DNA of 64,000 nucleotides, from contig CM057146.1 in NCBI GenBank assembly GCA_029964075.1, positions 10,001,501 through 10,065,500 on the forward strand, given 5' to 3'. Below, piece after piece: positions 31,960 through 61,822 of this stretch (the first letter of the stretch is position 1; each line of letters opens with the position of its first letter). The stretch is from Patiria pectinifera (Eukaryota > Echinodermata > Asteroidea > Valvatida > Asterinidae). The notes below the pieces were generated by a model that saw only the letters and a list, made by a program, of their open reading frames with translations, had not been told where the DNA came from and searched no databases. The position numbers and the translations under genes are program-made.

Positions 31960-32136
<177 letters not shown>

Positions 32137-32269
32137 TTATCACAACGGCCGTTCACACTATCCTTGATTTCAGAGACCCCCCTTTCGCACTAGAGTCCAA
32201 CATGGCTTCTACATTGGGTCTGGTGCTCTACATAAAACCGTGCTATGCCCAGTGCAGTTGGCAGTGAAT

Positions 32270-32500: not shown

Positions 32501-32553
32501 TTGCCAGAACCCAGATTTTGAGGTGTTTTGAATGGTCTAACTACAGGAGAGTT

Positions 32554-33161: not shown

Positions 33162-33164
33162 CAG

Positions 33165-33362
33165 TAAAATCCAACCCTGATCAGGACCAGGGTTGAGAGG
33201 CTTTACCCGGGTAGCAAATCCAAACTCTACAGCCGACCCGTGTACGCACCAGGTAAGTGTGAACGGTACACCTTGCCGACAAGTGCTCGACGGGACCCAG
33301 TTCTGCTTACGATGGATTAATTTCAACACGGGTAGGTGAGACGATAGTGTGAAAAGGCCTTA
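33165..33362. mobile_element. Repeat with CCCGGGT and AGTGTGAAAAGGC words
   Basis: It contains CAACCCTGATCAGGACCAGG GTTG and ends AGTGTGAAAAGGCC. The reverse complement matches the start of a copy at 63947-64000 (GCCCTTTTCACACTA). Confidence 0.6.
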
Positions 33363-33587
33363 ATATTCAAACCTTCTTGCATTTTCAGAATACCTTTTAC
33401 AACTGAAAAAATATTGAATTAGGTGGAAAGAGAGAAGGAAAAAATGTTGCAACCTGACGCCACTTCAGCGGTTGTGTACAAAGTCTATGGAGAGTCAAGA
33501 AAATTTTCCAGAGTATTTCCGAACAAAAGTGGAAATGTTTCTCGGACCACGATTCATGTCTTATCATTTTTTCAATGACTGGCACTC

Positions 33588-33645
33588 CACCTGGACTTTT
33601 CCAGTTCGATCGGCTTCGCCTCGTGAAATGGAAAAGTCCAGATTT
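33588..33645. repeat. Hairpin at the left flank of the satellite
   Basis: CTGGACTTTTCCA faces TGGAAAAGTCCAG around CGATCGGCTTCGCCTCG. It lies 70 bp before the satellite array begins. Confidence 0.75.
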
Positions 33646-33713
33646 TACCTTAATAATAATCCTCCCATTTCACTCTGAGCCACTCAATATTTGTGTAATA
33701 TCAGACTGTTGTT

Positions 33714-36700
33714 GCTCAAAAGTTCACACGAGGTGCATAGAGACAAGAATTAAATTCCCTGAAGAGTTCAACTCATTACATTCAGTATCCAGTGAGAAAA
33801 CAAAACTTTTTGATTTTTTTACAAAATGCCCCCAAAACTTCAACGTTTTCCATAGCCGGCATCATCGAAAAAGTCAGTTTTTCACCCAAAAATCCAACTT
33901 CACCAAAATTGCTCCAATGTTCACACGCGGTGCATAGAGACAAGAATTAAATTCCCTGAAGAGTTCAACTCATTACATTCAGTATCCAGTGAGAAAACAA
34001 AACTTTTTGATTTTTTTACAAAATGCCCCCAAAACTTCAACGTTTTCTATAGCCGGCATCATCGAAAAAGTCAGTTTTTCACCCAAAAATCCAACTTGAC
34101 CAAATTTGCTCAAAAGTTCACACGAGGTGCCTAGAGGCCAGAATTGAATTCCCTGAAGAGTTCAACTCATTACATTCAGTATCCAGTGAGAAAACAAAAC
34201 TTTTAGATTTTTTACAAAATGCCCCAAAACTTCAACGTTTTCCATAGCCGGCATCATCGAAAAAGTCAGTTTTTCACACAAAAATCAAAGTTGACCAAAT
34301 TTGCTCAAAAGTTCACACGAGGTGCCTAGAGGCCAGAATTGAATTCCCTGAAGAGTTCAACTCATTACATTCAGTATCCAGTGAGAAAACAAAACTTTTA
34401 GATTTTTTACAAAATGCCCCAAAACTTCAACGTTTTCCATAGCCGGCATCATAGAAAAAGTCAGTTTTTCACCCAAAAATCAAAGTTGACCAAATTTGCT
34501 CAAAAGTTCACAGGAGGTGCCTAGAGGCCAGAATTGAATTCCCTGAAGAGTTCAACTCATTACATTCAGTATCCAGTGAGAAAACAAAACTTTTAGATTT
34601 TTTACAAAATGCCCCAAAACTTCAACGTTTTCCATAGCCGGCATCATCAAAAAAGTCAGTTTTTCACCCAAAAATCCAACTTGACCAAATTTTCTCAAAA
34701 GTTCACACGAGGTGCCTAGAGGCCAGAATTGAATTCCCTGAAGAGTTCAACTCATTACATTCAGTATCCAGTGAGAAAACAAAACTTTTAGAATTTTTAC
34801 AAAATGCCCCAAAACTTCAACGTTTTCCATAGCCGGCATCATCGAAAAAGTCAGTTTTTCACCCAAAAAATTCAACTTGACCAAATTTGCTCAAAAGTTC
34901 ACAGGAGGTGCCTAGAGGCCAGAATTGAATTCCCTGAAGAGTTCAACTCATTACATTCAGTATCCAGTGAGAAAACAAAACTTTTAGATTTTTTACAAAA
35001 TGCCCCAAAACTTCAACGTTTTCCATAGCCGGCATCATCGAAAAAGACAGTTTTTCACCCAAAAATCAAAGTTGACCAAATTTGCTCAAAAGTTCACACG
35101 AGGTGCCTAGAGGCCAGAATTGAATTCCCTGAAGAGTTCAACTCACTAAATTCAGTATCCAGTGAGAAAAGAAAACTTTAAGATTTTTTACAAAATGTCC
35201 CAAAACTTCAACGTTTTCCATAGCCGGCATCATCGAAAAAGTCAGTTTTTCACCCAAAAATCAAAGTTGACCAAATTTGCGCAAAAGTTCACACGAGGTG
35301 CCTAGAGGCCAGAATTGAATTCCCTGAAGAGTTTAACTCATTACATTCAGTATCCAGTGAGAAAAGACAACTTTTAGATTTGTATAAAATGCCCCCAAAA
35401 CTTCAACGTTTTCCATAGCCGGCATCATCGAAAAAGTCAGTTTTTCACCCAAAAATCCAACTTGACCAAATTTGCTCAAAAGTTCACACGAGGTGCCTAA
35501 AGGCCAGAATTGAATTCCCTGAAGAGTTCAACTCATTACATTCAGTATCCAGTGAGAAAACAAAACTTTTAGATTTTTTACAAAATGCCCCAAAACTTCA
35601 ACGTTTTCCATAGCCGGCATCATCGAAAAAGTCAGTTTTTCACACAAAAATCAAAGTTGACCAAATTTGCTCAAAAGTTCACACGAGGTGCCTAGAGGCC
35701 AGAATTGAATTCCCTGAAGAGTTCAACTCATTACATTCAGTATCCAGTGAGAAAACAAAACTTTTAGATTTTTTACAAAATGCCCCAAAACTTCAACGTT
35801 TTCCATAGCCGGCATCATCGAAAAAGTCAGTTTTTCACCCAAAAATCAAAGTTGACCAAATTTGCTCAAAAGTTCACACGAGGTGCCTAGAGGCCAGAAT
35901 TGAATTCCCTGAAGAGTTTAACTCATTACATTCAGTATCCAGTGAGAAAACAAAACTTTTAGATTTTTATCAAATGCCCCAAAAACTTCAACGTTTTCCA
36001 TAGCCGGCATCATCGAAAAAGTCAGTTTTTCACCCAAAAAATTCAACTTGACCAAATTTGCTCAAAAGTTCACACGAGGTGCCTAGAGGCCAGAATTGAA
36101 TTCCCTGAAGAGTTCAAATCATTACATTCAGTATCCAGTGAGAAAACAAAACTTTTAGAATTTTTACAAAATGCCCCAAAACTTCAACGTTTTCCATAGC
36201 CGGCATCATCGAAAAAGTCAGTTTTTCACCCAAAAAATTCAACTTGACCAAATTTGCTCAAAAGTTCACAGGAGGTGCCTAGAGGCCAGAATTGAATTCC
36301 CTGAAGAGTTCAACTCATTACATTCAGTATCCAGTGAGAAAACAAAACTTTTAGATTTTTTACAAAATGCCCCAAAACTTCATTGTTTTCCATAGCCGGC
36401 ATCATCGAAAAAGACAGTTTTTCACCCAAAAATCAAAGTTGACCAAATTTGCTCAAAAGTTCACACGAGGTGCCTAGAGGCCAGAATTGAATTCCCTGAA
36501 GAGTTCAACTCACTACATTCAGTATCCAGTGAGAAAAGAAAACTTTAAGATTTTTTACAAAATGTCCCAAAACTTCAACGTTTTCCATAGCCGGCATCAT
36601 CGAAAAAGTCAGTTTTTCACCCAAAAATCAAAGTTGACCAAATTTGCGCAAAAGTTCACACGAGGTGCCTAGAGGCCAGAATTGAATTCCCTGAAGAGTT

Positions 36701-39700
36701 TAACTCATTACATTCAGTATCCAGTGAGAAAAGACAACTTTTAGATTTGTATAAAATGCCCCAAAAACTTCAACGTTTTCCATAGCCGGCATCATCGAAA
36801 AAGTCAGTTTTTCACCCAAAAATCCAACATCACCAAAATTGCTCAAAAGTTCACACGAGGTGCCTAGAGGCCAGAATTGAATTCCCTGAAGAGTTCAACT
36901 CATTACATTCAGTATCCAGTGAGAAAACAAAACTTTTAGATTTTTTATAAAATGCCCCAAAAACTTCAACGTTTTCCATAGCCGGCATCATCGAAAAAGT
37001 CAGTTTTTCACCCAAAAAATTCAACTTGACCAAATTTGCTCAAAAGTTCACACGAGGTGCCTAGAGGCCGGAATTGAATTCCCTGAAGAGTTCAACTCAT
37101 TACATTCAGTATCCAGTGAGAAAACAAAACATTTAGATTTTTTACAAAATGACCCAAAACTTCAACGTTTTCCATAGCCGGCATCATCGAAAAAGTCAGT
37201 TTTTCACCCAAAAAATTCAACTTGACCAAATTTGCTCAAAAGTTCATACGAGGTGCCTAGAGGCCAGAATTGAATTTCCTGAAGAGTTCAACTCATTACA
37301 TTCAGTATCCAGTGAGAAAACAAAACTTTTAGATTTTTTACAAAATGTCCCAAAACTTCAACATTTTCCATAGCCGGCATCATCGAAAAAGTCAGTTTTT
37401 CACCCAAAAATCAAAGTTGACCGAATTTGCTCAAAAGTTCACACGAGGTGCCTAGAGGCCACAATTGAATTCCCTGAAGAGTTTAACTCATTACATTCAG
37501 TATCCAGTGAGAAAACAAAACTTTTAGATTTTTTACAAAATGCCCCAAAACTTCAACGTTTTCCATGGCCGGCATCATCGAAAAAGTCAGTTTTTCACCC
37601 AAAAAATTCAACTTGACCAAATTTGCTCAAAAGTTCACACGAGGTGCCTAGAGGCCAGAATTGAATTCCCTGAAGAGTTCAACTCATTATATTCAGTATC
37701 CAGTGAGAAAACAAAACTTTAGATTTTTTACAAAATGCCCCAAAACTTCAACGTTTTCCATAGCCGGCATCATCAAAAAAGTCAGTTTTTCACCCAAAAA
37801 TCCAACTTGACCAAATTTGCTCAAAAGTTCACACGAGGAGCCTAGAGGCCAGAATTGAATTCCCTGAAGAGTTCAACTCATTACATTCAGTATCCAGTGA
37901 GAAAAGAAAACTTTTAGATTTTTTACAAAATGTCCCAAAACTTCAACGTTTTCCATAGCCGGCATCATCCATAAAGTCAGTTTTTCACCCAAAAAATTCA
38001 ACTTGACCAAATTTGCTCAAAAGTTCACACGAGGTGCCTAGAGGCCAGAATTGAATTCCCTGAAGAGTTCAACTCATTACATTCAGTATCCAGTGAGAAA
38101 ACAAAACTTTCAGATTTTTTACAAAATGCCCCAAAACTTCAACGTTTTCCATAGCCGGCATCATCCATAAAGTCAGTTTTTCACCCAAAAAATTCAACTT
38201 GACCAAATTTGCTCAAAAGTTCACACGAGGTGCCTAGAGGCCAGAATTGAATTCCCTGAAGAGTTCAACTCATTACATTCAGTATCCAGTGAGAAAACAA
38301 AACTTTCAGATTTTTTACAAAATGCCCCAAAACTTCAACGTTTTCCATAGCCGGCATCATCGAAAAAGTCAGTTTTTCACCCAAAAATCCAACATCACCA
38401 AAATTGCTCAAAAGTTCACACGAGGTGCCTAGAGGCCAGAATTGAATTCCCTGAAGAGTTCAACTCATTACATTCAGTATCCAGTGAGAAAACAAAACTT
38501 TTAGATTTTTTATAAAATGCCCCAAAAACTTCAACGTTTTCCATAGCCGGCATCATCGAAAAAGTCAGTTTTTCACCCAAAAAATTCAACTTGACCAAAT
38601 TTGCTCAAAAGTTCACACGAGGTGCCTAGAGGCCGGAATTGAATTCCCTGAAGAGTTCAACTCATTACATTCAGTATCCAGTGAGAAAACAAAACATTTA
38701 GATTTTTTACAAAATGACCCAAAACTTCAACGTTTTCCATAGCCGGCATCATCGAAAAAGTCAGTTTTTCACCCAAAAAATTCAACTTGACCAAATTTGC
38801 TCAAAAGTTCACACGAGGTGCCTAGAGGCCAGAATTGAATTCCCTGAAGAGTTCAACTCATTACATTCAGTATCCAGTGAGAAAACAAAACTTTTAGATT
38901 TTTTACAAAATGTCCCAAAACTTCAACGTTTTCCATAGCCGGCATCATCCAAAAAGTCAGTTTTTCACCCAAAAAATTCAACTTGACCAAATTTGCTCAA
39001 AAGTTCACACGAGGTGCCTAGAGGCCACAATTGAATTCCCTGAAGAGTTCAACTCATTACATTCAGTATCCAGTGAGAAAACAAAACTTTTAGATTTTTT
39101 ACAAAATGCCCCAAAACTTCAACGTTTTCCATAGCCGGCATCATCAAAAAAGTCAGTTTTTCACCCAAAAATCCAACTTGACCAAATTTTCTCAAAAGTT
39201 CACACGAGGTGCTTAGAGGACAGAATTGAATTCCCTGAAGAGTTCAACTCATTACATTCAGTATCCTGTGAGAAAAGAAAACTTTTAGATTTTTTACAAA
39301 ATGCCCCAAAACTTCAACGTTTTCCATAGCCGGCATCATCGAAAAAGTCAGTTTTTCACCCAAAAAATTCAACTTGACCAAATTTGCTCAAAAGTTCACA
39401 CGAGGTGCCTAGAGGCCAGAATTGAATTCCCTGAAGAGTTCAACTCATTACATTCAGTATCCAGTGAGAAAACAAAACTTTTAGATTTTTTACAAAATGA
39501 CCCAAAACTTCAACGCTTTCCATAGCCGGCATCATCGAAAAGACAGTTTTTCACCCAAAATCACAATTGACCAAATTTGCTCGAAATTTCACACGAGGTG
39601 CCTAGAGGCCAGAATTGAATTCCCTGAAGAGTTCAACTCATTACATTCAGTATCCAGTGAGAAAAGAAAACTTTTAGATTTTTTACAAAATGCCCCAAAA

Positions 39701-42700
39701 CTTCAACGTTTTCCATAGCCGGCATCATCAAAAAAGTCAGTTTTTCACCCAAAAATCCAACTTGACCAAATTTTCTCAAAAGTTAACACGAGGTACCTAG
39801 AGGACAGAATTGAATTCCCTGAAGAGTTCAACTCATTACATTCAGTATCCAGTGAGAAAAAAAAACTTTTAGATTTTTTACAAAATGCCCCAAAACTTCA
39901 ACGTTTTCCATAGCCGGCATCATCGAAAAAGTCAGTTTTTCACCCAAAAAATTCAACTTGACCAAATTTGCTCAAAAGTTCACACGAGGTGCCTAGAGGC
40001 CAGAATTGAATTCCCTGAAGAGTTCAACTCATTACATTCAGTATCCAGTGAGAAAACAAAACTTTTAGATTTTTTACAAAATGACCCAAAACTTCAACGT
40101 TTTCCATAGCCGGCATCATCGAAAAAGTCAGTTTTTCACCCAAAAATCAAAGTTGACCAAATTTGCTCAAAAGTTCACACGAGGTGCCTAGAGGCCAGAA
40201 TTGAATTCCCTGAAGAGTTCAACTCATTACATTCAGTATCCAGTGAGAAAACAAAACTTTTAGATTTTTTACAAAATGTCCCAAAACTTCAACGTTTTCC
40301 ATAGCCGGCATCATCAAAAAAGTCAGTTTTTCACCAAAAAAATTCAACTTGACCAAATTTGCTCAAAAGTTCACACGAGGTGCCTAGAGGCCAGAATTGA
40401 ATTCCCTGAAGAGTTCAACACATTACATTCAGTATCCAGTGAGAAAAGAAAACTTTTAGATTTTTTACAAAATGCCCCAAAACTTCAACGTTTTCCATAG
40501 CCGGCATCATCCAAAAAATCAGTTTTTCACCCAAAAAATTCAACGTGACCAAATTTGCTCAAAAGTTCACACGAGGTGCCTAGAGGCCAGAATTGAATTC
40601 CCTGAAGAGTTCAACTCATTACATTCAGTATCCAGTGAGAAAAGAAAACTTTTAGATTTTTTACAAAATGCCCCAAAACTTCAACGTTTTCCATAGCCGG
40701 CATCATCGAAAAAGTCAGTTTTTCACCCAAAAATCCAACTTGACCAAATTTTCTCAAAAGTTCACACGAGGTGCCTAGAGGCCAGAATTGAATTCCTTGA
40801 AGAGTTCAACTCATTACATTCAGTATCCAGTGAGAAAACAAAACTTTTAGATTTTTTACAAAATGCCCCAAAACTTCAACGTTTTCCATGGCCGGCATCA
40901 TCGAAAAAGTCAGTTTTTCACCCAAAAAATTCAACTTGACCAAATTTGCTCAAAAGTTCACACGAGGTGCCTAGAGGCCAGAATTGAATTCCCTGAAGAG
41001 TTCAACTCATTATATTCAGTATCCAGTGAGAAAACAAAACTTTAGATTTTTTACAAAATGCCCCAAAACTTCAACGTTTTCCATAGCCGGCATCATGGAA
41101 AAAGTAAGTTTTTCACCCCAAAATCAAAGTTGTCCAAATTTGCTCAAAAGTTCACACGAGGAGCCTAGAGGCCAGAATTGAATTCCCTGAAGAGTTCAAC
41201 TCATTACATTCAGTATCCAGTGAGAAAAGAAAACTTTTAGATTTTTTACAAAATGTCCCAAAACTTCAACGTTTTCCATAGCCGGCATCATCCATAAAGT
41301 CAGTTTTTCACCCAAAAAATTCAACTTGACCAAATTTGCTCAAAAGTTCACACGAGGTGCCTAGAGGCCAGAATTGAATTCCCTGAAGAGTTCAACTCAT
41401 TACATTCAGTATCCAGTGAGAAAACAAAACTTTTAGATTTTTTACAAAATGACCCAAAACTTCAACGTTTTCCATAGCCGGCATCATCGAAAAAGTCAGT
41501 TTTTCACCCAAAAATCAAAGTTGACCAAATTTGCTCAAAAGTTCACACGAGGTGCCTAGAGGCCAGAATTGAATTCCCTGAAGAGTTCAACTCATTACAT
41601 TCAGTATCCAGTGAGAAAACAAAACTTTTAGATTTTTTACAAAATGTCCCAAAACTTCAACGTTTTCCATAGCCGGCATCATCAAAAAAGTCAGTTTTTC
41701 ACCAAAAAAATTCAACTTGACCAAATTTGCTCAAAAGTTCACACGAGGTGCCTAGAGGCCAGAATTGAATTCCCTGAAGAGTTCAACACATTACATTCAG
41801 TATCCAGTGAGAAAAGAAAACTTTTAGATTTTTTACAAAATGCCCCAAAACTTCAACGTTTTCCATAGCCGGCATCATCCAAAAAATCAGTTTTTCACCC
41901 AAAAAATTCAACGTGACCAAATTTGCTCAAAAGTTCACACGAGGTGCCTAGAGGCCAGAATTGAATTCCCTGAAGAGTTCAACTCATTACATTCAGTATC
42001 CAGTGAGAAAAGAAAACTTTTAGATTTTTTACAAAATGCCCCAAAACTTCAACGTTTTCCATAGCCGGCATCATCGAAAAAGTCAGTTTTTCACCCAAAA
42101 ATCCAACTTGACCAAATTTTCTCAAAAGTTCACACGAGGTGCCTAGAGGCCAGAATTGAATTCCTTGAAGAGTTCAACTCATTACATTCAGTATCCAGTG
42201 AGAAAACAAAACTTTTAGATTTTTTACAAAATGCCCCAAAACTTCAACGTTTTCCATGGCCGGCATCATCGAAAAAGTCAGTTTTTCACCCAAAAAATTC
42301 AACTTGACCAAATTTGCTCAAAAGTTCACACGAGGTGCCTAGAGGCCAGAATTGAATTCCCTGAAGAGTTCAACTCATTATATTCAGTATCCAGTGAGAA
42401 AACAAAACTTTAGATTTTTTACAAAATGCCCCAAAACTTCAACGTTTTCCATAGCCGGCATCATGGAAAAAGTAAGTTTTTCACCCCAAAATCAAAGTTG
42501 TCCAAATTTGCTCAAAAGTTCACACGAGGAGCCTAGAGGCCAGAATTGAATTCCCTGAAGAGTTCAACTCATTACATTCAGTATCCAGTGAGAAAAGAAA
42601 ACTTTTAGATTTTTTACAAAATGTCCCAAAACTTCAACGTTTTCCATAGCCGGCATCATCCATAAAGTCAGTTTTTCACCCAAAAAATTCAACTTGACCA

Positions 42701-45700
42701 AATTTGCTCAAAAGTTCACACGAGGTGCCTAGAGGCCAGAATTGAATTCCCTGAAGAGTTCAACTCATTACATTCAGTATCCAGTGAGAAAACAAAACTT
42801 TCAGATTTTTTACAAAATGCCCCAAAACTTCAACGTTTTCCATAGCCGGCATCATCCATAAAGTCAGTTTTTCACCCAAAAAATTCAACTTGACCAAATT
42901 TGCTCAAAAGTTCACACGAGGTGCCTAGAGGCCAGAATTGAATTCCCTGAAGAGTTCAACTCATTACATTCAGTATCCAGTGAGAAAACAAAACTTTCAG
43001 ATTTTTTACAAAATGCCCCAAAACTTCAACGTTTTCCATAGCCGGCATCATCGAAAAAGTCAGTTTTTCACCCAAAAATCCAACATCACCAAAATTGCTC
43101 AAAAGTTCACACGAGGTGCCTAGAGGCCAGAATTGAATTCCCTGAAGAGTTCAACTCATTACATTCAGTATCCAGTGAGAAAACAAAACTTTTAGATTTT
43201 TTATAAAATGCCCCAAAAACTTCAACGTTTTCCATAGCCGGCATCATCGAAAAGTCAGTTTTTCACCCAAAAAATTCAACTTGACCAAATTTGCTCAAAA
43301 GTTCACACGAGGTGCCTAGAGGCCGGAATTGAATTCCCTGAAGAGTTCAACTCATTACATTCAGTATCCAGTGAGAAAACAAAACATTTAGATTTTTTAC
43401 AAAATGACCCAAAACTTCAACGTTTTCCATAGCCGGCATCATCGAAAAAGTCAGTTTTTCACCCAAAAAATTCAACTTGACCAAATTTGCTCAAAAGTTC
43501 ACACGAGGTGCCTAGAGGCCAGAATTGAATTCCCTGAAGAGTTCAACTCATTACATTCAGTATCCAGTGAGAAAACAAAACTTTTAGATTTTTTACAAAA
43601 TGTCCCAAAACTTCAACGTTTTCCATAGCCGGCATCATCCAAAAAGTCAGTTTTTCACCCAAAAAATTCAACTTGACCAAATTTGCTCAAAAGTTCACAC
43701 GAGGTGCCTAGAGGCCAGAATTGAATTCCCTGAAGAGTTCAACTCATTACATTCAGTATCCAGTGAGAAAACAAAACTTTTAGATTTTTTACAAAATGCC
43801 CCAAAACTTCAACGTTTTCCATAGCCGGCATCATCAAAAAAGTCAGTTTTTCACCCAAAAATCCAACTTGACCAAATTTTCTCAAAAGTTCACACGAGGT
43901 GCTTAGAGGACAGAATTGAATTCCCTGAAGAGTTCAACTCATTACATTCAGTATCCTGTGAGAAAAGAAAACTTTTAGATTTTTTACAAAATGCCCCAAA
44001 ACTTCAACGTTTTCCATAGCCGGCATCATCGAAAAAGTCAGTTTTTCACCCAAAAAATTCAACTTGACCAAATTTGCTCAAAAGTTCACACGAGGTGCCT
44101 AGAGGCCAGAATTGAATTCCCTGAAGAGTTCAACTCATTACATTCAGTATCCAGTGAGAAAACAAAACTTTTAGATTTTTTACAAAATGACCCAAAACTT
44201 CAACGTTTTCCATAGCCGGCATCATCGAAAAAGACAGTTTTTCACCCAAAAATCACAATTGACCAAATTTGCTCGAAAGTTCACACGAGGTGCCTAGAGG
44301 CCAGAATTGAATTCCCTGAAGAGTTCAACTCATTACATTCAGTATCCAGTGAGAAAACAAAACTTTTAGATTTTTTACAAAATGCCCCAAAACTTCAACG
44401 TTTTCCATAGCCGGCATCATCAAAAAAGTCAGTTTTTCACCCAAAAATCCAACTTGACCAAATTTTCTCAAAAGTTAACACGAGGTACCTAGAGGACAGA
44501 ATTGAATTCCCTGAAGAGTTCAACTCATTACATTCAGTATCCAGTGAGAAAAAAAAACTTTTAGATTTTTTACAAAATGCCCCAAAACTTCAACGTTTTC
44601 CATAGCCAGCATCATCGAAAAAGTCAGTTTTTCACCCACAAAATTCAACTTGACCAAATTTGCTCAAAAGTTCACACGAGGTGCCTAGAGGCCAGAATTG
44701 AATTCCCTGAAGAGTTCAACTCATTACATTCAGTATCCAGTGAGAAAACAAAACTTTTAGATTTTTTACAAAATGACCCAAAACTTCAACGTTTTCCATA
44801 GCCGGCATCATCGAAAAAGTCAGTTTTTCACCCAAAAATCAAAGTTGACCAAATTTGCTCAAAAGTTCACACGAGGTGCCTAGAGGCCAGAATTGAATTC
44901 CCTGAAGAGTTCAACTCATTACATTCAGTATCCAGTGAGAAAACAAAACTTTTAGATTTTTTACAAAATGTCCCAAAACTTCAACGTTTTCCATAGCCGG
45001 CATCATCAAAAAAGTCAGTTTTTCACCAAAAAAATTCAACTTGACCAAATTTGCTCAAAAGTTCACACGAGGTGCCTAGAGGCCAGAATTGAATTCCCTG
45101 AAGAGTTCAACACATTACATTCAGTATCCAGTGAGAAAAGAAAACTTTTAGATTTTTTACAAAATGCCCCAAAACTTCAACGTTTTCCATAGCCGGCATC
45201 ATCCAAAAAATCAGTTTTTCACCCAAAAAATTCAACGTGACCAAATTTGCTCAAAAGTTCACACGAGGTGCCTAGAGGCCAGAATTGAATTCCCTAAAGA
45301 GTTCAACTCATTACATTCAGTATCCAGTGAGAAAAGAAAACTTTTAGATTTTTTACAAAATGCCCCAAAACTTCAACGTTTTCCATAGCCGGCATCATCG
45401 AAAAAGTCAGTTTTTCACCCAAAAATCCAACTTGACCGAATTTGCTCAAAAGTTCACACGAGGTGCCTAGAGGCCAGAATTGAATTCCCTGAAGAGTTCA
45501 ACTCATTACATTCAGTATCCAGTGAGAAAACAAAACTTTTAGATTTTTTACAAAATGCCCCAAAACTTCAACGCTTTCCATAGCCGCATCATCGACAAAG
45601 TCAGTTTTTCACACAAAAATCAAAGTTGACCAAATTTGCTCAAAAGTTCACACGAGGTGCCTAGAGGCCAGAATTGAATTCCCTGAAGAGTTCAACTCAT

Positions 45701-48700: not shown

Positions 48701-51700
48701 CATAGCCGGCATCATCGAAAAAGTCAGTTTTTCACCCAAAAAATTCAACTTGACCAAATTTGCTCAAAAGTTCACACGAGGTGCCTAGAGGCCAGAATTG
48801 AATTCCCTGAAGAGTTCAACTCATTACATTCAGTATCCAGTGACAAAACAAAACTTTTAGATTTTTTACAAAATGACCCAAAACTTCAACGTTTTCCATA
48901 GCCGGCATCATCGAAAAAGTCAGTTTTTCACCCAAAAATCAAAGTTGACCAAATTTGCTCAAAAGTTCACACGAGGTGCCTAGAGGCCAGAATTGAATTC
49001 CCTGAAGAGTTCAACTCATTACATTCAGTATCCAGTGAGAAAACAAAACTTTTAGATTTTTTACAAAATGTCCCAAAACTTCAACGTTTTCCATAGCCGG
49101 CATCATCAAAAAAGTCAGTTTTTCACCAAAAAATCAAAGTTGACCGAATTTGCTCAAAAGTTCACACGAGGTGCCTAGAGGCCAGAATCGAATTCCCTGA
49201 AGAGTTCAACTCATTACATTCAGTATCCAGTGAGAAAACAAAACTTTTAGATTTTTTACAAAATGCCCCAAAACTTCAACGTTTTCCATAGCCGGCATCA
49301 TCGAAAAGTCAGTTTTTTACCCAAAAATCAAAGTTGACCGAATTTGCTTAAAAGTTCACACGAGGTGCCTAGAGGCCAGAATTGAATTCCCTGAAGAGTT
49401 TAACTCATTACATTCAGTATCCAGTGAGAAAAGAAAACTTTTAGATTTTTTACAAAATGCCCCAAAACTTCAACGTTTTCCATAGCCGGCATCATCGAAA
49501 AAGTCAGTTTTTCACCCAAAAATCCAACTAGACCAAATTTGCTCAAAAGTTCACACCAGGTGCCTAGAGGCCACAATTGAATTCCCTGAAGAGTTCAACT
49601 CATTACATTCAGTATCCAGTGAGAAAAGACAACTTTTAGATTTTTATAAAATGCCCCAAAAACTTCAACGTTTTCCATAGCCGGCATCATCGAAAAAGTC
49701 AGTTTTTCACCCAAAAATCCAACTTGACCAAATTTTCTCAAAAGTTCACACGAGGTGCCTAGAGGACAGAATTGAATTCCCTGAAGAGTTCAACTCATTA
49801 CATTCAGTATCCAGTGAGAAAACAAAACTTTTAGATTTTTTACAAAATGTCCCAAAACTTCAACGTTTTCCATAGCCGGCATCATCAAAAAAGTCAGTTT
49901 TTCACCCAAAAATCAAAGTTGACCGAATTTGCTCAAAAGTTCACACGAGGTGCCTAGAGGCCACAATTGAATTCCATGAAGAGTTCAACTCATTACATTC
50001 AGTATCCAGTGAGAAAACAAAACTTTTAGATTTTTTACAAAATGCCCCAAAACTTCAACGTTTTCCATAGCCGGCATCATCGAAAAGTCAGTTTTTTACC
50101 CAAAAATCAAAGTTGACCGAATTTGCTTAAAAGTTCACACGAGGTGCCTAGAGGCCAGAATTGAATTCCCTGAAGAGTTTAACTCATTACATTCAGTATC
50201 CAGTGAGAAAAGAAAACTTTTAGATTTTTTACAAAATGCCCCAAAACTTCAACGTTTTCCATAGCCGGCATCATCGAAAAAGTCAGTTTTTCACCCAAAA
50301 ATCCAACTAGACCAAATTTCCTCAAAAGTTCACACCAGGTGCCTAGAGGCCACAATTGAATTCCCTGAAGAGTTTAACTCATTACATTCAGTATCCAGTG
50401 CTAAAAGACAACTTTTAGATTTTTATAAAATGCCCCAAAAACTTCAACGTTTTCCATAGCCGGCATCATCGCAAAAGTCAGTTTTTCACCCAAAAATCCA
50501 ACTTGACCAAATTTTCTCAAAAGTTCACACGAGGTGCCTAGAGGACAGAATTGAATTCCCTGAAGAGTTCAACTCATTACATTCAGTATCCAGTGAGAAA
50601 ACAAAACTTTTAGATTTTTTACAAAATGCCCCAAAACTTCAACGTTTTCCATAGCCGGCATCATCGAAAAAGTCAGTTTTTCACCCAAAAATCAAAGTTG
50701 ACCGAATTTGCTCAAAAGTTCACACGAGGTGCCTAGAGGCCACAATTGAATTCCATGAAGAGTTCAACTCATTACATTCCGTATCCAGTGAGAAAACAAA
50801 ACTTTTAGATTTTTTACAAAATGCCCCAAAAACTTCAACGTTTTCCATAGCCGGCATCATCGAAAAAGTCAGTTTTTCACCCAAAAATCAAACTTGACCA
50901 AATTTGCTCAAAAGTTCACACGAGGTGCCTAGAGGCCAGAATTGAATTCCCTGAAGAGTTCAACTCATTACATTCAGTATCCAGTGAGAAAAGAAAACTT
51001 TTAGATTTTTTACAAAATGCCCCAAAACTTCAACGTTTTCCATAGCCGGCATCATCGAAAAAGTCAGTTTTTCACCCAAAAATCCAACTAGACCAAATTT
51101 GCTCAAAAGTTCACACGAGGTGCCTAGAGGCCACAATTGAATTCCCTGAAGAGTTCAACTCATTACATTCAGTATCCAGTGAGAAAAGACAACTTTTAGA
51201 TTTTTTACAAAATGCCCCAAAACTTCAACGTTTTCCATAGCCGGCATCATCGAAAAAGTCAGTTTTTCACCCAAAAATCCAACTTGACCAAATTTTCTCA
51301 AAAGTTCACACGAGGTGCCTAGAGGACAGAATTGAATTCCCTGAAGAGTTCAACTCATTACATTCAGTATCCAGTGAAAAAAGAAAACTTTTAGATTTTT
51401 TACAAAATGCCCCAAAACTTCAACGTTTTCCATGGCCGGCATCATCGAAAAAGTCAGTTTTTCACCCAAAAAATTCAACTTGACCAAATTTGCTCAAAAG
51501 TTCACACGAGGTGCCTAGAGGCCAGAATTGAATTCCCTGAAGAGTTCAACTCATTATATTCAGTATCCAGTGAGAAAACAAAACTTTAGATTTTTTACAA
51601 AATGCCCCAAAACTTCAACGTTTTCCATAGCCGGCATCATGGAAAAAGTAAGTTTTTCACCCCAAAATCAAAGTTGTCCAAATTAGCTCAAAAGTTCACA

Positions 51701-54700
51701 CGAGGAGCCTAGAAGCCAGAATTGAATTCCCTGAAGAGTTCAACTCATTACATTCAGTATCCAGTGAGAAAACAAAACTTTTAGATTTTTTACAAAATGC
51801 CCCAAAACTTCAACGTTTCCCTTACCCGCCACAATCAAAAATTCAGTTTTTCACCCAAAAATCAAAGTTGACCGAATTTGCTCAAAAGTTCACACGAGGT
51901 GCCTAGAGGCCAGAATTGAATTCCCTGAAGAGTTCAACTCATTACATTCAGTATCCAGTGAGAAAACAAAACTTTTAGATTTTTTACAAAATGCCCCAAA
52001 ACTTCAACGTTTTCCATAGCCGGCATCATCGAAAAAGTCAGTTTTTCACCCAAAAATCAAAGTTGACCGAATTTGCTTAAAAGTTCACACGAGGTGCCTA
52101 GAGGCCAGAATTGAATTCCCTGAAGAGTTCAACTCATTACATTCAGTATCCAGTGAGAAGAAAACTTTTAGATTTTTTACAAAATGCCCCAAAACTTCAA
52201 CGTTTTCCAAAGCCGGCATCATCGAAAAAGTCAGTTTTTCACCCAAAAATCCAACTAGACCAAATTTGCTCAAAAGTTCACACCAGGTGCCTAGAGGCCA
52301 CAATTGAATTCCCTGCAGAGTTTAACTCATTACATTCAGTATCCAGTGAGAAAAGACAACTTTTAGATTTTTATAAAATGCCCCAAAACTTCAACGTTTT
52401 CCATAGCCGACATCATCGAAAAAGTCAGTTTTTCACCCAAAAATCAAAGTTGACCAAATTTTCTCAAAAGTTCACACGAGGTGCCTAGAGGACAGAATTG
52501 AATTCCCTGAAGAGTTCAACTCATTACATTCAGTATCCAGTGAGAAAACAAAACTTTTAGATTTTTTACAAAATGCCCCAAAACTTCAACGTTTTCCATA
52601 GCCGGCATCATCCATAAAGTCAGTTTTTCACCCCAAAATCAAAGTTGACCGAATTTGCTCAAAAGTTCACACGAGGTGCCTAGAGGACAGAATTGAATTC
52701 CCTGAAGAGTTCAACTCATTACATTCAGTATCCAGTGAGAAAACAAAACTTTTAGATTTTTTACAAAATGCCCCAAAAACTTCAACGTTTTCCATAGCCG
52801 GCATCATCGAAAAAGTCAGTTTTTCACCCAAAAATCAAAGTTGACCGAATTTGTTCAAAAGTTCACACGAGGTGCCAAGAGGCCAGAATTGAATTCCCTG
52901 AAGAGTTTTACTCATTACATTCAGTATCCAGTGAGAAAAGAAAACTTTTAGATTTTTTACAAAATGCCCCAAAACTTCAACGTTTTCCATAGCCGGCATC
53001 ATCGAAAAAGTCAGTTTTTCACCCAAAAATCCAACTAGACCAAATTTGCTCAAAAGTTCACACCAGGTGCCTAGAGGCCACAATTGAATTCCCTGAAGAG
53101 TTTAACTCATTACATTCAGTATCCAGTGAGAAAAGACAACTTTTAGATTTTTATAAAATGCCCCAAAAACTTCAACGTTTTCCATAGCCGGCATCATCGA
53201 AAAAGTCAGTTTTTCACCCAAAAATCCAACTTGACCAAATTTTCTCAAAATTTCACACGAGGTGCCTAGAGGACAGAATTGAATTCCCTGAAGAGTTCAA
53301 CTCATTACATTCAGTATCCAGTGAGAAAAGAAAACTTTTAGATTTTTTACAAAATGCCCCAAAACTTCAACGTTTTCCATGGCCGGCATCATCGAAAAAG
53401 TCACTTTTTCACCCAAAAAATTCAACTTGACCAAATTTGCTCAAAAGTTCACACGAGGTGCCTAGAGGCCAGAATTGAATTCCCTGAAGAGTTCAACTCA
53501 TTATATTCAGTATCCAGTGAGAAAACAAAACTTTAGATTTTTTACAAAATGCCCCAAAACTTCAACGTTTTCCATAGCCGGCATCATCCATAAAGTCAGT
53601 TTTTCACCCCAAAATCAAAGTTGTCCAAATTAGCTCAAAAGTTCACACGAGGAGCCTAGAGGCCAGAATTGAATTCCCTGAAGAGTTCAACTCATTACAT
53701 TCAGTATCCAGTGAGAAAACAAAACTTTTAGATTTTTTACAAAATGCCCCAAAACTTCAACTTTTTCCATAGCCGGCATCATGGAAAAAGTCAGTTTTTC
53801 ACCCAAAAATCAAAGTTGACCGAATTTGCTCAAAAGTTCACACGAGGTGCCTAGAGGCCAGAATTGAATTCCCTGAAGAGTTTAACTCATTACATTCAGT
53901 ATCCAGTGAGAAAAGAAAACTTTTAGATTTTTTACAAAATGCCCCAAAACTTCAACGTTTTCCATAGCCGGCATCATCGAAAAAGTCAGTTTTTCACCCA
54001 AAAATCCAACTAGACCAAATTTGCTCAAAAGTTCACACCAGGTGCCTAGAGGCCACAATTGAATTCCCTGAAGAGTTTAACTCATTACATTCAGTATCCA
54101 GTGAGAAAAGACAACTTTTAGATTTTTATAAAATGCCCCAAAAACTTCAACGTTTTCCATAGCCGGCATCATCGAAAAAGTCAGTTTTTCACCCAAAAAT
54201 CCAACTTGACCAAATTTTCTCAAAAGTTCACACGAGGTGCCTAGAGGACAGAATTGAATTCCCTGAAGAGTTCAACTCATTACATTCAGTATCCAGTGAG
54301 AAAAGAAAACTTTTAGATTTTTTACAAAATGCCCCAAAACTTCAACGTTTTCCATAGCCGGCATCATCGAAAAAGTCAGTTTTTCACCCCAAAATCAAAG
54401 TTGACCGAATTTGCTCAAAAGTTCACACGAGGTGCCTAGAGGCCACATTTGAATTCCCTGAAGAGTTCAACTCATTACATTCAGTATCCAGTGAGCAAAC
54501 AAAACTTTTAGATTTTTTACAAAATGCCCCAAAAACTTCAACGTTTTCCATAGCCGGCATCATCGAAAAAGTCAGTTTTTCACCCAAAAATCAAAGTTGA
54601 CCGAATTTGTTCAAAAGTTCACACGAGGTGCCAAGAGGCCAGAATTGAATTCCCTGAAGAGTTTAACTCATTACATTCAGTATCCAGTGAGAAAAGAAAA

Positions 54701-57700
54701 CTTTTAGATTTTTTACAAAATGCCCCAAAACTTCAACGTTTTCCATAGCCGGCATCATCGAAAAAGTCAGTTTTTCACCCAAAAATCCAACTAGACCAAA
54801 TTTGCTCAAAAGTTCACACCAGGTGCCTAGAGGCCACAATTGAATTCCCTGAAGAGTTTAACTCATTACATTCAGTATCCAGTGAGAAAAGACAACTTTT
54901 AGATTTTTATAAAATGCCCCAAAAACTTCAACAGTTTCCATAGCCGGCATCATCGAAAAAGTCAGTTTTTCACCCAAAAATCCAACTTGACCAAATTTTC
55001 TCAAAAGTTCACATGAGGTGCCTAGAGGACAGAATTGAATTCCCTGAAGAGTTCAACTCATTACATTCAGTATCCAGTGAGAAAAGAAAACTTTTAGATT
55101 TTTTTACAAAATGCCCCAAAACTTCAACGTTTTCCATGGCCGGCATCATCGAAAAAGTCACTTTTTCACCCAAAAAATTCAACTTGACCAAATTTGCTCA
55201 AAAGTTCACACGAGGTGCCTAGAGGCCAGAATTGAATTCCCTGTAGAGTTCAACTCATTATATTCAGTATCCAGTGAGAAAACAAAACTTTAGATTTTTT
55301 ACAAAATGCCCCAAAACTTCAACGTTTTCCATAGCCGGCATCATGGAAAAAGTAAGTTTTTCACCCCAAAATCAAAGTTGTCCAAATTAGCTCAAAAGTT
55401 CACACGAGGAGCCTAGAGGCCAGAATTGAATTCCCTGAAGAGTTCAACTCATTACATTCAGTATCCAGTGAGAAAAGAAAACTTTTAGATTTTTTACAAA
55501 ATGTCCCAAAACTTCAACGTTTTCCATAGCCGGCATCATCCAAAAAGTCAGTTTTTCACCCAAAAATCAAAGTTGACCGAATTTGTTCAAAAGTTCACAC
55601 GAGGTGCCAAGAGGCCAGAATTGAATTCCCTGAAGAGTTCAACTCATTACATTCAGTATCCAGTGAGAAAAGAAAACTTTTAGATTTTTTACAAAATGCC
55701 CCAAAACTTCAACGTTTTCCATAGCCGGCATCATCGAAAAAGTCAGTTTTTCACCCAAAAATCCAACTAGACCAAATTTGCTCAAAAGTTCACACCAGGT
55801 GCCTAGAGGCCACAATTGAATTCCCTGAAGAGTTTAACTCATTACATTCAGTATCCAGTGAGAAAAGACAACTTTTAGATTTTTATAAAATGCCCCAAAA
55901 ACTTCAACATTTTCCATAGCCGGCATCATCGAAAAAGTCAGTTTTTCACCCAAAAATCCAACTTGACCAAATTTTCTCAAAAGTTCACACGAGGTGCCTA
56001 GAGGACAGAATTGAATTCCCTGAAGAGTTCAACTCATTACATTCAGTATCCAGTGAGAAAAGAAAACTTTTAGATTTTTTACAAAATGCCCCAAAACTTC
56101 AACGTTTTCCATGGCCGGCATCATCGAAAAAGTCACTTTTTCACCCAAAAAATTCAACTTGACCAAATTTGCTCAAAAGTTCACACGAGGTGCCTAGAGG
56201 CCAGAATTGAATTCCCTGTAGAGTTCAACTCATTATATTCAGTATCCAGTGAGAAAACAAAACTTTAGATTTTTTACAAAATGCCCCAAAACTTCAACGT
56301 TTTCCATAGCCGGCATCATGGAAAAAGTAAGTTTTTCACCCCAAAATCAAAGTTGTCCAAATTAGCTCAAAAGTTCACACGAGGAGCCTAGAGGCCAGAA
56401 TTGAATTCCCTGAAGAGTTCAACTCATTACATTCAGTATCCAGTGAGAAAACAAAACTTTTAGATTTTTTACAAAATGCCCCAAAAACTTCAACGTTTTC
56501 CATAGCCGGCATCATCGAAAAAGTCAGTTTTTCACCCAAAAATCAAAGTTGACCGAATTTGTTCAAAAGTTCACACGAGGTGCCAAGAGGCCAGAATTGA
56601 ATTCCCTGAAGAGTTTAACTCATTACATTCAGTATCCAGTGAGAAAAGAAAACTTTTAGATTTTTTACAAAATGCCCCAAAACTTCAACGTTTTCCATAG
56701 CCGGCATCATCGAAAAAGTCAGTTTTTCACCCAAAAATCCAACTAGACCAAATTTGCTCAAAAGTTCACACCAGGTGCCTAGAGGCCACAATTGAATTCC
56801 CTGAAGAGTTTAACTCATTACATTCAGTATCCAGTGAGAAAAGACAACTTTTAGATTTTTATAAAATGCCCCAAAAACTTCAACAGTTTCCATAGCCGGC
56901 ATCATCGAAAAAGTCAGTTTTTCACCCAAAAATCCAACTTGACCAAATTTTCTCAAAAGTTCACATGAGGTGCCTAGAGGACAGAATTGAATTCCCTGAA
57001 GAGTTCAACTCATTACATTCAGTATCCAGTGAGAAAAGAAAACTTTTAGATTTTTTTACAAAATGCCCCAAAACTTCAACGTTTTCCATGGCCGGCATCA
57101 TCGAAAAAGTCACTTTTTCACCCAAAAAATTCAACTTGACCGAATTTGCTCAAAAGTTCACACGAGGTGCCTAGAGGCCAGAATTGAATTCCCTGTAGAG
57201 TTCAACTCATTATATTCAGTATCCAGTGAGAAAACAAAACTTTAGATTTTTTACAAAATGCCCCAAAACTTCAACGTTTTCCATAGCCGGCATCATGGAA
57301 AAAGTAAGTTTTTCACCCCAAAATCAAAGTTGTCCAAATTAGCTCAAAAGTTCACACGAGGAGCCTAGAGGCCAGAATTGAATTCCCTGAAGAGTTCAAC
57401 TCATTACATTCAGTATCCAGTGAGAAAAGACAACTTTTAGATTTTTTACAAAATGTCCCAAAACTTCAACGTTTTCCATAGCCGGCATCATCCAAAAAGT
57501 CAGTTTTTCACCCAAAAATCAAAGTTGACCGAATTTGTTCAAAAGTTCACACGAGGTGCCAAGAGGCCAGAATTGAATTCCCTGAAGAGTTCAACTCATT
57601 ACATTCAGTATCCAGTGAGAAAAGAAAACTTTTAGATTTTTTACAAAATGCCCCAAAACTTCAACGTTTTCCATAGCCGGCATCATCGAAAAAGTCAGTT

Positions 57701-60700
57701 TTTCACCCAAAAATCCAACTAGACCAAATTTGCTCAAAAGTTCACACCAGGTGCCTAGAGGCCACAATTGAATTCCCTGAAGAGTTTAACTCATTACATT
57801 CAGTATCCAGTGAGAAAAGACAACTTTTAGATTTTTATAAAATGCCCCAAAAACTTCAACATTTTCCATAGCCGGCATCATCGAAAAAGTCAGTTTTTCA
57901 CCCAAAAATCCAACTTGACCAAATTTTCTCAAAAGTTCACACGAGGTGCCTAGAGGACAGAATTGAATTCCCTGAAGAGTTCAACTCATTACATTCAGTA
58001 TCCAGTGAGAAAAGAAAACTTTTAGATTTTTTACAAAATGCCCCAAAACTTCAACGTTTTCCATGGCCGGCATCATCGAAAAAGTCACTTTTTCACCCAA
58101 AAAATTCAACTTGACCAAATTTGCTCAAAAGTTCACACGAGGTGCCTAGAGGCCAGAATTGAATTCCCTGTAGAGTTCAACTCATTATATTCAGTATCCA
58201 GTGAGAAAACAAAACTTTAGATTTTTTACAAAATGCCCCAAAACTTCAACGTTTTCCATAGCCGGCATCATGGAAAAAGTAAGTTTTTCACCCCAAAATC
58301 AAAGTTGTCCAAATTAGCTCAAAAGTTCACACGAGGAGCCTAGAGGCCAGAATTGAATTCCCTGAAGAGTTCAACTCATTACATTCAGTATCCAGTGAGA
58401 AAACAAAACTTTTAGATTTTTTACAAAATGTCCCAAAACTTCAACGTTTTCCATAGCCGGAATCATCGAAAAAGTCAGTTTTTCACCCAAAAAATTCAAC
58501 TTGACCAAATTTGCTCAAAAGTTCACACGAGGTGCCTAGAGGCCAGAATTGAATTCCCTGAAGAGTTCAACTCATTACATTCAGTATCCAGTGAGAAAAC
58601 AAAACTTTTAGATTTTTTACAAAATGCCCCAAAACTTCAACGTTTTCCATAGCCGGCATCATCGAAAAAGTCAGTTTTTCACCCAAAAATCAAAATTGAC
58701 CAAATTTGCTCAAAAGTTCACACGAGGTGCCTAGAGGCCAGAATTGAATTCCCTGAACAGTTCAACTCATTACATTCAGTATCCAGTGAGAAAACAAAAC
58801 TTTTAGATTTTTTACAAAATGCCCCAAAACTTCAACTTTTTCCATAGCCGGCATCATGGAAAAAGTCAGTTTTTCACCCAAAAATCAAAGTTGACCGAAT
58901 TTGCTCAAAAGTTCACACGAGGTGCCTAGAGGCCAGAATTGAATTCCCTGAAGAGTTCAACTCATTACATTCAGTATCCAGTGAGAAAAGAAAACTTTTA
59001 GATTTTTTACAAAATGCCCCAAAACTTCAACGTTTTCCATAGCCGGCATCATCCAAAAAGTCAGTTTTTCACCCAAAAATCAAAGTTGACCGAATTTGCT
59101 TAAAAGTTAACACGAGGTGCCTAGAGGCCAGAATTGAATTCCCTGAAGAGTTTAACTCATTACATTCAGTATCCAGTGAGAAAACAAAACTTTTAGATTT
59201 TTTACAAAATGCACCAAAAACTTCAACGTTTTCCATAGCCGGCATCATCGAAAAAGTCAGTTTTTCACCCAAAAATCAAAGTTGACCGAATTTGTTCAAA
59301 AGTTCACACGAGGTGCCAAGAGGCCAGAATTGAATTCCCTGAAGAGTTTAACTCATTACATTCAGTATCCAGTGAGAAAAGAAAACTTTTAGATTTTTTA
59401 CAAAATGCCCCAAAACTTCAACGTTTTCCATAGCCGGCATCATCGAAAAAGTCAGTTTTTCACCCAAAAATCCAACTAGACCAAATTTGCTCAAAAGTTC
59501 ACACCAGGTGCCTAGAGGCCAGAATTGAATTCCCTGAAGAGTTTAACTCATTACATTCAGTATCCAGTGAGAAAAGACAACTTTTAGATTTTTATAAAAT
59601 GCCCCAAAAACTTCAACATTTTCCATAGCCGGCATCATCGAAAAAGTCAGTTTTTCACCCAAAAATCCAACTTGACCAAATTTTCTCAAAAGTTCACACG
59701 AGGTGCCTAGAGGACAGAATTGAATTCCCTGAAGAGTTCAACTCATTACATTCAGTATCCAGTGAGAAAAGAAAACTTTTAGATTTTTTACAAAATGCCC
59801 CAAAACTTCAACGTTTTCCATGGCCGGCATCATCGAAAAAGTCACTTTTTCACCCAAAAATTTCAACTTGACCAAATTTGCTCAAAAGTTCACACGAGGT
59901 GCCTAGAGGCCAGAATTGAATTCCCTGAAGAGTTCAACTCATTATATTCAGTATCCAGTGAGAAAAAAAAACTTTTAGATTTTTTACAAAATGCCCCAAA
60001 ACTTCAACGTTTTCCATAGCCGGCATCATGGAAAAAGTCAGTTTTTCACCCCAATATCAAAGTTGTCCAAATTTGCTCAAAAGTTCACACGAGGAGCCTA
60101 GAGGCCAGAATTGAATTCCCTGAAGAGTTCAACTCATTACATTCAGTATCCAGTGAGAAAACAAAACTTTTAGATTTTTTACAAAATGCCCCAAAACTTC
60201 AACGTTTTCCATAGCCGGCATCATCCAAAAAGTCAGTTTTTCACCCAAAAAATTCAACTTGACCAAATTTGCTCAAAAGTTCACACGAGGTGCCTAGAGG
60301 CCAGAATTGAATTCCCTGAAGAGTTCAACTCATTACATTCAGTATCCAGTGAGAAAACAAAACTTTTAGATTTTTTACAAAATGTCCCAAAACTTCAACG
60401 TTTTCCATAGCCGGCATCATCGAAAAAGTCAGTTTTTCACCCAAAAAATTCAACTTGACCAAATTTGCTCAAAAGTTAACACGAGGTGCCTAGAGGCCAG
60501 AATTGAATTCCCTGAAGTGTTCAACTCATTACATTCAGCATCCAGTGAGAAAAGAAAACTTTTAGATTTTTTACAAAATGCCCCAAAACTGCAACGTTTT
60601 CCATAGCCGGCATCATCAAAAAAGTCAGTTTTTCACCCAAAAAATTCAACTTGACCAAATTTGCTCAAAAGTTAACACGAGGTGCCTAGAGGCCAGAATT

Positions 60701-61183
60701 GAATTCCCTGAAGTGTTCAACTCATTACATTCAGCATCCAGTGAGAAAAGAAAACTTTTAGATTTTTTACAAAATGCCCCAAAACTTCAACGTTTTCCAT
60801 AGCCAGCATCATCGAAAAAGTCAGTTTTTCACCCAAAAATCCAACTTCACCAAAATTGCTCAAAAGTTCACACGAGGTGCCTAGAGGACAGAATTGAATA
60901 CCCTGAAGAGTTCAACTCATTACATTCAGTATCCAGTGAGAAAAGAAAACTTTTAGATTTTTATAAAATGCCCCCAAAACTTCAACGTTTTCCATAGCCG
61001 GCATCATCGAAAAAGTCAGTTTTTCACACAAAAATCCAACATCATGATGACCAAATTTGCTCAAAAGTTCACACGAGGTGCCTAGAGGCCAGAATTGAAT
61101 TCCCTGAAGAGTTCAACCCATTACATTCAGTATCCAGTGAGAAAAGAAAACTTTTTGATTTTTTACAAAATACCCCCAAAACT
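33714..61183 (+). repeat. Satellite array, about 140 units of 195-196 bp, inside intron 3
   Basis: This is an uninterrupted head-to-tail array of 27.5 kb. Each unit holds CACACGAGGTGCCTAGAGGC, TTGAATTCCCTGAAGAGTTC (an EcoRI site), TCAGTATCCAGTGAGAAAA, TTCAACGTTTTCCATAGCC, GGCATCATCG and GTCAGTTTTTCACCC. Units differ mainly in a short hypervariable spot: AAAATCCAACTTGACC (195 bp), AAAAAATTCAACTTGACC (196 bp), AAAATCAAAGTTGACC. Short open frames of 60-74 codons recur in both strands because the unit lacks stops in some frames; they have no features of protein selection. Segments of 5-24 units are duplicated within the array. Edge units are the most divergent. Confidence 0.98.
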
Positions 61184-61185
61184 GA

Positions 61186-61650
61186 CCAGGATCGCGGATA
61201 CAAGTTTACTTGGAGATAAATTCTGGTATCCCCCTCAAACTCAAAGCCATCTAATATTATTAGTTATCTTGCGAGCGCGAGTGGAACACGGAATAATGTA
61301 GTGCGTCTGTGTCCCACATGCCACGAGGCCGAAGGCCGAGTGGAATGTGGGACACAGACGCACTACATTTTCCGTGTTCCACGAGCGCGAGCGTGATAAC
61401 GAATTTATCTTCAAGCAAACTTGACGCACAGTAAAGTTGGAACACGCTTGCTGTAACCTACTACGCGCAACTTGTGAATTCACAGTGAATTGTGCAGCAC
61501 TAATCGCATCACGTAGGCTTAGAATAGTGCAATACGCGGAGTGCGGTATGGACAGTGGCCGTGCGGTATGGTTATATGTAGCACGGCTTGTTGCCATGGA
61601 TCGACCAATCAGGATCGAGGATTCAAGTTTGCTTGAAGATAATATATAAT
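61186..61650. mobile_element. Foldback element at the right edge of the satellite
   Basis: At 61269-61392 a hairpin has arms of about 50 bp: GCGAGTGGAACACGGAA and TGTAGTGCGTCTGTGTCCCA, facing GGGACACAGACGCACTACAT and TCCGTGTTCCACGAGCGCG. Outer words GGATACAAGTTTACTTGGAG (61195) and ATCTTCAAGCAAACTTG (61408) are inverted, and a direct copy GATTCAAGTTTGCTTGAAGA lies at 61620. The last satellite unit breaks directly into this sequence. Confidence 0.8.
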
Positions 61651-61699
61651 TATACTATCCATCGTTATGGAAAGCTAGGAAAAGAATAGTGGTGCTTAC

Positions 61700-61822
61700 C
61701 CTATCCGATCTGACAGGGGAATACAGAGGCAGGTTGTCTGCTATAGATGAACACACGAGCTGGGCTAGGACCAGCGCATAGAAGACGAAGAAAGTGACTA
61801 CACGGAACATATCCTGATCTGT
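61700..61822 (-). CDS. Exon 3 of window: last TMD0 helix
   Basis: This exon has 41 codons, phase 0 to 0. TDQDMFRVVTFFVFYALVLA continues into a hydrophobic helix and ends SIADNLPLYSPVRSDR. It corresponds to the fifth TMD0 helix and following turn of MRP1 (DLFRDITFYVYFSLLL, then FSDRSPLFSE). The acceptor is CTTTTCAG and the donor AGG|GTAAGC. The intron after this exon is the 29.6-kb intron that holds the satellite array. Confidence 0.94.

Follow-up and report, generated by a model that had tools for sequence, protein, structure and literature searches.

The closest described relatives of the locus reported here are satellites and long tandem repeats that lie within or near genes. In Tribolium castaneum, satellites of the TCAST families are scattered near genes, and 29 of 68 TCAST-like elements are in introns (PMC3411249, PMC5844308). 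One intron of the human gene CACNA1C contains the VNTR 'TRACT', a tandem array of 30-bp units that reaches up to 30+ kb and displays extreme length and sequence variation (PMC13131567, a preprint). Introns of the Drosophila Y-linked coding genes kl-3 and kl-5 hold megabases of simple satellite DNA, and these intronic satellites are transcribed (PMC6508621). The central repeats of Crassostrea gigas Helentrons are tandem monomers of ~165-170 bp that are dispersed in an animal genome inside transposons, with a mean of about 5 units per array and 29.3 in the longest (PMC7492417).

Here we describe a satellite array in an intron of an ABCC transporter gene that resembles each of these systems in part. 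As with TCAST, for which no common flanking sequence is reported, the satellite is a dispersed family with intronic cases; TCAST1-like elements, however, reach four units (1,440 nt) and the longest multimer of the other TCAST families is a 10-mer, as opposed to 141 units and 27.5 kb here (PMC3411249, PMC5844308). The likeness to CACNA1C is that of one intron with a tandem array of tens of kilobases, but the array described here is built from a 195-bp unit of a dispersed satellite family rather than from a repeat of one gene (PMC13131567). The Drosophila introns share the presence of satellite DNA within a coding gene, whereas the present case is ~27 kb of a complex satellite, and the other introns of its gene are short (PMC6508621). 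Unlike the oyster repeats, the array has a right flank of single-copy sequence (PMC7492417). Set against the beetle and oyster cases considered here, the array is long for an intronic complex satellite; it is within the CACNA1C range and much shorter than the Drosophila Y introns. It belongs to an already known kind, as an intronic satellite that is long and turns over fast. A literature search by the features of the satellite, run without the species name, found no description of this satellite among the titles and abstracts listed.

Host gene and intron

The analyzed window is a stretch of 64,000 nt that contains no Ns and corresponds to C18:10001501-10065500 in a 613.5-Mb genome. The host gene is an MRP1-like ABCC gene on the minus strand that continues beyond both window ends, such that the array has exon 3 on its right and exon 4 on its left (Table 1; exons are numbered within the window, and exact ends were established for some of them only). 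The predicted product appears to be a transporter of the ABCC/MRP1 type, with TMD0-L0, ABC_membrane and ABC_tran in MRP order. The spliced peptide of exons 1-7 aligned with MRP1 entries over residues 28-324 of 324 (E 1.5e-80), and Pfam identified PF00664 (ABC_membrane) or PF00005 (ABC_tran) in 4 of the 5 window ORFs scanned; the scan of the exon-3 ORF returned no family.

The initial annotation had placed the array in a 29.6-kb intron between exons 3 and 4 with compatible splice sites and phases, and closer inspection bears this out. The intron of 29,631 bp has the donor GG/GTAAGC and the acceptor TTTGGCAG/AAT and is in phase 0 on both sides. Exon 3 ends with the peptide PVRSDR followed by GTAAGC, exon 4 opens with NPCPEAS after CAG, and the MRP1 alignment is gapless across the joint; the joint of exons 4 and 5 is in phase 2. 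The array thus appears to sit between two consecutive, phase-compatible exons of one gene. Without the array the intron would comprise 2,159 bp. The remaining introns, read by eye, are short, at about 0.6-3.4 kb (0.4-2.9 kb in the initial annotation). An ABCC paralogue lies at C18:23.16 Mb, where the exon-3 and exon-4 matches are about half a kilobase apart and the intron is therefore short. The suggestion that the host gene is essential found no support, given that this paralogue exists. Two ABCC exons apparently end in GC donors on the minus strand, as read by eye (window positions 63618 and 30704, in the contexts ATG/GCAAGT and AAAG/GCAAGT).

Table 1. Coordinates of the array, its flanks and the neighboring exons in the window
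Feature	Position	Strand	Basis or remark
Exon 2 (MLVFFIIHTERIRG...ILASEE)	62889..63026	-	identical peptide in loci L070 and L072
Exon 3 (TDQDMF...PVRSDR)	61699..61821	-	aligned to MRP1
Intron between exons 3 and 4, 29,631 bp	32068..61698	-	splice sites, phase
MITE-like high-copy repeat, ~390 bp	61254..61643	.	approximate ends; best 40 of 1,911 candidates scored
Right array flank	61184..61252	.	all 3 genome candidates match, each a copy of the ABCC-array locus
Satellite array, 141 units of ~195 bp	33712..61183	+	TRF, EcoRI spacing, unit splitting
Left array flank (terminal part of a palindromic, MITE-like dispersed repeat)	33591..33703	.	approximate end; best 40 of 1,539 candidates scored
Exon 4	32002..32067	-	aligned to MRP1
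Exon 5 (MVIQGYKRALTTTDLWSLL...), apparent GC donor	30704..30820	-	boundaries counted by eye

Structure of the array

TRF reported a single array with a period of 195, 140.6 copies and 95% matches, which is 27,472 bp (27.5 kb) long and without a gap. Its end at 61183 is the one first annotated, and its start moves from 33714 to 33712. Anchor-based splitting gave 141 units, mostly of 195-196 bp and the final one partial, in agreement with the roughly 140 uninterrupted units of 195-196 bp noticed at first; unit spacings were 193-197 in 139 of 140 cases and 201 in the remaining one. An EcoRI ladder of about 195 bp had been predicted, and the array does contain 137 EcoRI sites, with 134 of the 136 spacings at 193-197 bp (195 bp in 67 cases, 196 bp in 43). 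All units are arranged head-to-tail in a single orientation, and the satellite consensus as written is oriented opposite to the host gene. Among the 140 full units the mean pairwise identity is 0.948 (range 0.861-1.0), 101 of the unit sequences are distinct, and a second state is shared by at least 25 units in each of six alignment columns. The array is long, head-to-tail and of high mutual identity and is thereby a satellite DNA of the complex kind, with a monomer of about 200 bp.

The order of the units is non-random and includes copied blocks of 6-9 units. Pairwise identity between units does not decay with distance, yet the order shows a weak higher-order periodicity near 4.8 units, with minimum differences at lags 5, 9-10, 14, 19 and 24 (means of 8.1-8.8, versus about 10 otherwise); none of 500 shuffled unit orders gave a lowest-lag difference as low. 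The longest recurring run of near-identical consecutive units comprised 9 units, compared with at most 3 in 200 shuffled orders. Units 33-39 and 64-70 recur without a difference as units 40-46 and 77-83, respectively, while units 108-116 and 22-29 recur with 2 differences each as units 118-126 and 46-53.

The consensus unit showed no unusual RNA fold (z -0.36) and no Rfam match was found within the array, and on these grounds we rejected a reading of the array as a conserved RNA. The sole Rfam match reported for the window is a tRNA at 22866-22938. The sense strand of the array has no AATAAA or ATTAAA, as expected under read-through; this is a weak indication, given that a single 195-bp unit often lacks both by chance. 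The array's sense strand also contains 126 copies of the acceptor-like CTCTTCAG, which could act as decoy splice acceptors.

Flanks and scaffold context

The sequence immediately to the right of the array is single-copy. The MITE-like repeat of ~390 bp beyond it is present in the window, whereas the right flank lacks it in its two other copies, and some copies of this repeat lie side by side elsewhere in the genome. On the left, most of the listed copies of the MITE-like repeat stop 4-17 bases short of the array, and one reaches it.

The window belongs to a contig of about 168 kb (C18:9980327-10148171) that is bounded by two gaps of 500 N. On the contig to the left, exons 4 onward recur at C18 9958-9968 kb, and the left array flank recurs at C18:9969207-9969620 with 98% identity, adjoining another array that stops at the left gap (9979827-9980326). 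Past the right gap (10148172-10148671), the next base, 10148672, is already array, which extends to 10164624; beyond it come the single-copy right flank and then exons 3 and 2. No exon 3 was found before the gap of the left contig (91 of 91 candidates scored), its counterpart being on the contig past the second gap. A 60% match at C18:10164654 was considered as an intronless paralogue and ruled out, because that site has an exon 3 of 97.6% identity next to the array.

The first base of the window contig (9980327) is colinear with C18:9907296 on the left contig, and its last base (10148171) with 10254488, where the final 660 bases before the right gap match C18:10253864-10254488 at 91%. Since both ends of the window contig are colinear with the neighboring contigs, the simplest reading is that it represents the other haplotype, which would have been placed in series at the point where the first haplotype was interrupted by the array. 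In the compared stretch C18:9900001-9930000, colinear on-diagonal blocks of more than 400 bp have 88-98% identity, with kilobase indels. The two apparent haplotypes differ at 1 of 138 bases in exon 2, 1 of 123 in exon 3 and 0 of 66 in exon 4; the piece of intron from exon 4 to the array is 93% identical (45 mismatches and 8 gap openings in 1,720 columns). The region C18:9907296-9979826, 9980327-10148171 and 10148672-10254488 is apparently an unpurged haplotig, in which the ABCC gene looks duplicated and is probably single.

A small contig, C978 (34,993 bp), carries a third copy of the right junction. It aligns with the right contig in register at 97.8% (24 mismatches and 14 gaps in 2,120 columns), and it differs by short indels and by a deletion of 6 bp inside exon 3. 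This divergence from the right contig exceeds what strictly two haplotypes would give. C978 is probably a redundant, lower-quality duplicate of one haplotype, and it may instead be a third haplotype from pooled animals.

The array in the two apparent haplotypes

The interior of the array is largely, not wholly, rearranged between the inferred haplotypes, and its edges are common to both. At the left edge, the first 228 array bases are identical, which covers all of unit 1 (197 of 197 bases) and the start of unit 2; the in-register differences per unit are 0, 17, 10, 4, 9, 5 and 7, and the register is lost. At the right edge, the last 64 bases are identical, after which in-register differences of 21, 25, 15, 10 and so on again mark its loss. 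By comparison, 167 bases at this edge are identical between C978 and the right contig, and the two keep their register over the compared stretch, so that register is detectable where it is present.

Alignment by unit order gave a score of 19 for the 77 units of the right contig against the window, with at most 17 in 60 permutations, compared with 63 when the two halves of the window array were aligned to each other. Four array pieces of the left contig (sampled as 45 units, two short stretches excepted) scored 6, 11, 10 and 11, values that were reached by 60, 3, 4 and 3 of 60 permutations. The residual scores above permutation thus indicate that interior turnover is large and not complete. A window partner with at most 1 difference was found for 12 of the 77 right units and 7 of the 45 left units of the other haplotype, and for 0 of 219 units at five other loci. 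Mean differences from window units were 10.4-11.6 within the ABCC locus (the window array itself and the allelic pieces), as against 14.5-24.5 to units of the five other loci, which are samples and come partly from overlapping loci. The apparent alleles thus differ in array composition. The guess that the array is polymorphic holds for sequence and unit order; as to length, the comparison is between 27.5 kb in the window and 26.2 kb in the other haplotype, whose two pieces (about 10.2 and 16.0 kb) are cut by gaps.

The satellite family in the genome

The initial annotation proposed a genome-wide search for the monomer, which proved to be present at many places. A 31-mer pattern with at most 2 mismatches, which matches 136 times in the 141-unit window array, has 2,456 + 2,376 = 4,832 matches in the genome, and the reversed-pattern control had 0. 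This corresponds to an estimated 5,000 or so units, or ~1 Mb and ~0.16% of the assembly. Besides the ABCC locus, the family occurs among the matches listed on C1, C2, C3, C10, C14, C18 (about 9.354-9.383 Mb) and C816, a lower bound on its places given that the best 36 of 557 candidates were scored; the listed places are interstitial on large contigs, plus small contigs, and a centromeric role finds no support among them.

The units appear to be closer to each other within a locus than between loci. The C1 array is an exception, as its 18 units differ by 27.5 among themselves and by 23.7-29.5 from other loci. On C10, 4.5 units (L034:1080-1963) lie between two exon-like stretches, of which one has a Pfam EGF domain; the second has no Pfam match and, in our judgment, presumably resembles LamG. 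The C10 array is likely a second intronic case, again opposite in orientation to the gene, judging from these stretches. At C2:6.66-6.85 Mb, four two-unit copies (~355-365 bp; L059-L062), one of them inverted, are part of segmental duplications of at least 4.4 kb that are 97.7-99.7% identical, and these copies have a different phase at the satellite edge. Edge phases differ between loci, and nine array-edge flanks of 500 bp from five loci had no mutual match at E 1e-3.

Discussion

What is the history by which an ordinary intron came to hold 141 satellite units? The array lies in the intron, both of its junctions are present in more than one contig, blocks of units are duplicated within it, its units resemble each other more than those of other loci, and relatives are dispersed in the genome. 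From these observations we infer a likely course of events: a seed of the dispersed 195-bp family would have entered a ~2.2-kb ABCC intron before the two haplotypes diverged, after which the array would have expanded to ~26-28 kb and turned over at this site as multi-unit blocks slipped or were unequally exchanged. Exchange is rare among the outermost repeats, and these would have remained unchanged as the interior came to differ in unit order between haplotypes. Frozen edges with a reshuffled interior, exact block copies and locus-specific similarity form the pattern expected of unequal exchange and slippage in an array. The whole array is most likely transcribed in the pre-mRNA and discarded with the intron, which would make it a tolerated, presumably neutral passenger that is spliced out. 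As for the arrival of the seed, rolling-circle amplification, which has been put forward for dispersed euchromatic satellites (PMC12653875), would fit the unrelated flanks and variable phase.

An assembly artefact, in which the array was misjoined into the gene or its length resulted from collapsed or expanded repeats, is very unlikely. The scaffold does look misassembled in other respects, with haplotigs in series and 500-N gaps at the edges of array copies, and exact duplications such as the two 7-unit blocks with 0 differences can come from misassembly. However, the left and right junctions each recur in another contig with allelic differences nearby, which upholds the original placement of the array inside the gene; the pieces of the other haplotype add up to about the same size, and distinct units are numerous enough for long reads to place. 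A real tandem duplication of the ABCC gene with two arrays is also improbable, if marginally less so. It would account for the pair of colinear copies that one scaffold carries ~65-73 kb apart, and the 88-98% identity of the blocks with kilobase indels would suit an older duplication. Nevertheless, the homology extends exactly up to the gap on either side of the window contig, so that a duplication requires chance contig ends at both, and exon 3 is missing from the left copy up to its gap and turns up past the second gap.

We give similarly little weight to the idea that the array was moved in by a transposon, as central repeats of the Helitron/Helentron type. Such carriage is known in Crassostrea gigas (PMC7492417), and the left flank is a MITE-like repeat that ends within ~17 bp of the array, yet the right flank is single-copy (3 of 3 candidates), the nine flanks are unrelated and the edge phases vary. 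The four C2 copies do have common flanks, but as segmental duplications. Helentron- or Helitron-borne repeats were rejected because common flanking modules are not found at the single-copy right flank or among the nine flanks compared. A regulatory role, in which the array slows elongation, nucleates heterochromatin or times ABCC expression, is likewise highly doubtful. It has a precedent in the satellite-bearing kl-3 and kl-5 introns of Drosophila, which need dedicated RNA-binding proteins (PMC6508621), and the array is most likely present in both haplotypes. The unremarkable fold, the lack of an Rfam match, the unit order that is hardly kept between haplotypes and the scatter of the family elsewhere in the genome all speak against it. 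It is even less probable that the array is a tunable ABCC element, with RNA or chromatin homology to ~1 Mb of satellite linking the gene's expression to a genome-wide network and with allelic turnover generating heritable variation.

The two apparent haplotypes in one assembly afford a direct view of array turnover, with frozen edges and a reshuffled interior. The array also illustrates how a satellite can break an assembly, with a haplotig seemingly scaffolded in series and an ABCC gene whose doubling is probably false. If transcribed, it provides a natural test of Pol II and splicing across ~27 kb of satellite. The 3' part of the ABCC gene contains a separate tandem repeat at window positions 5209-5805, with 12 copies of ~50 bp that are alternatively scored as 4 copies of a 149-bp unit.
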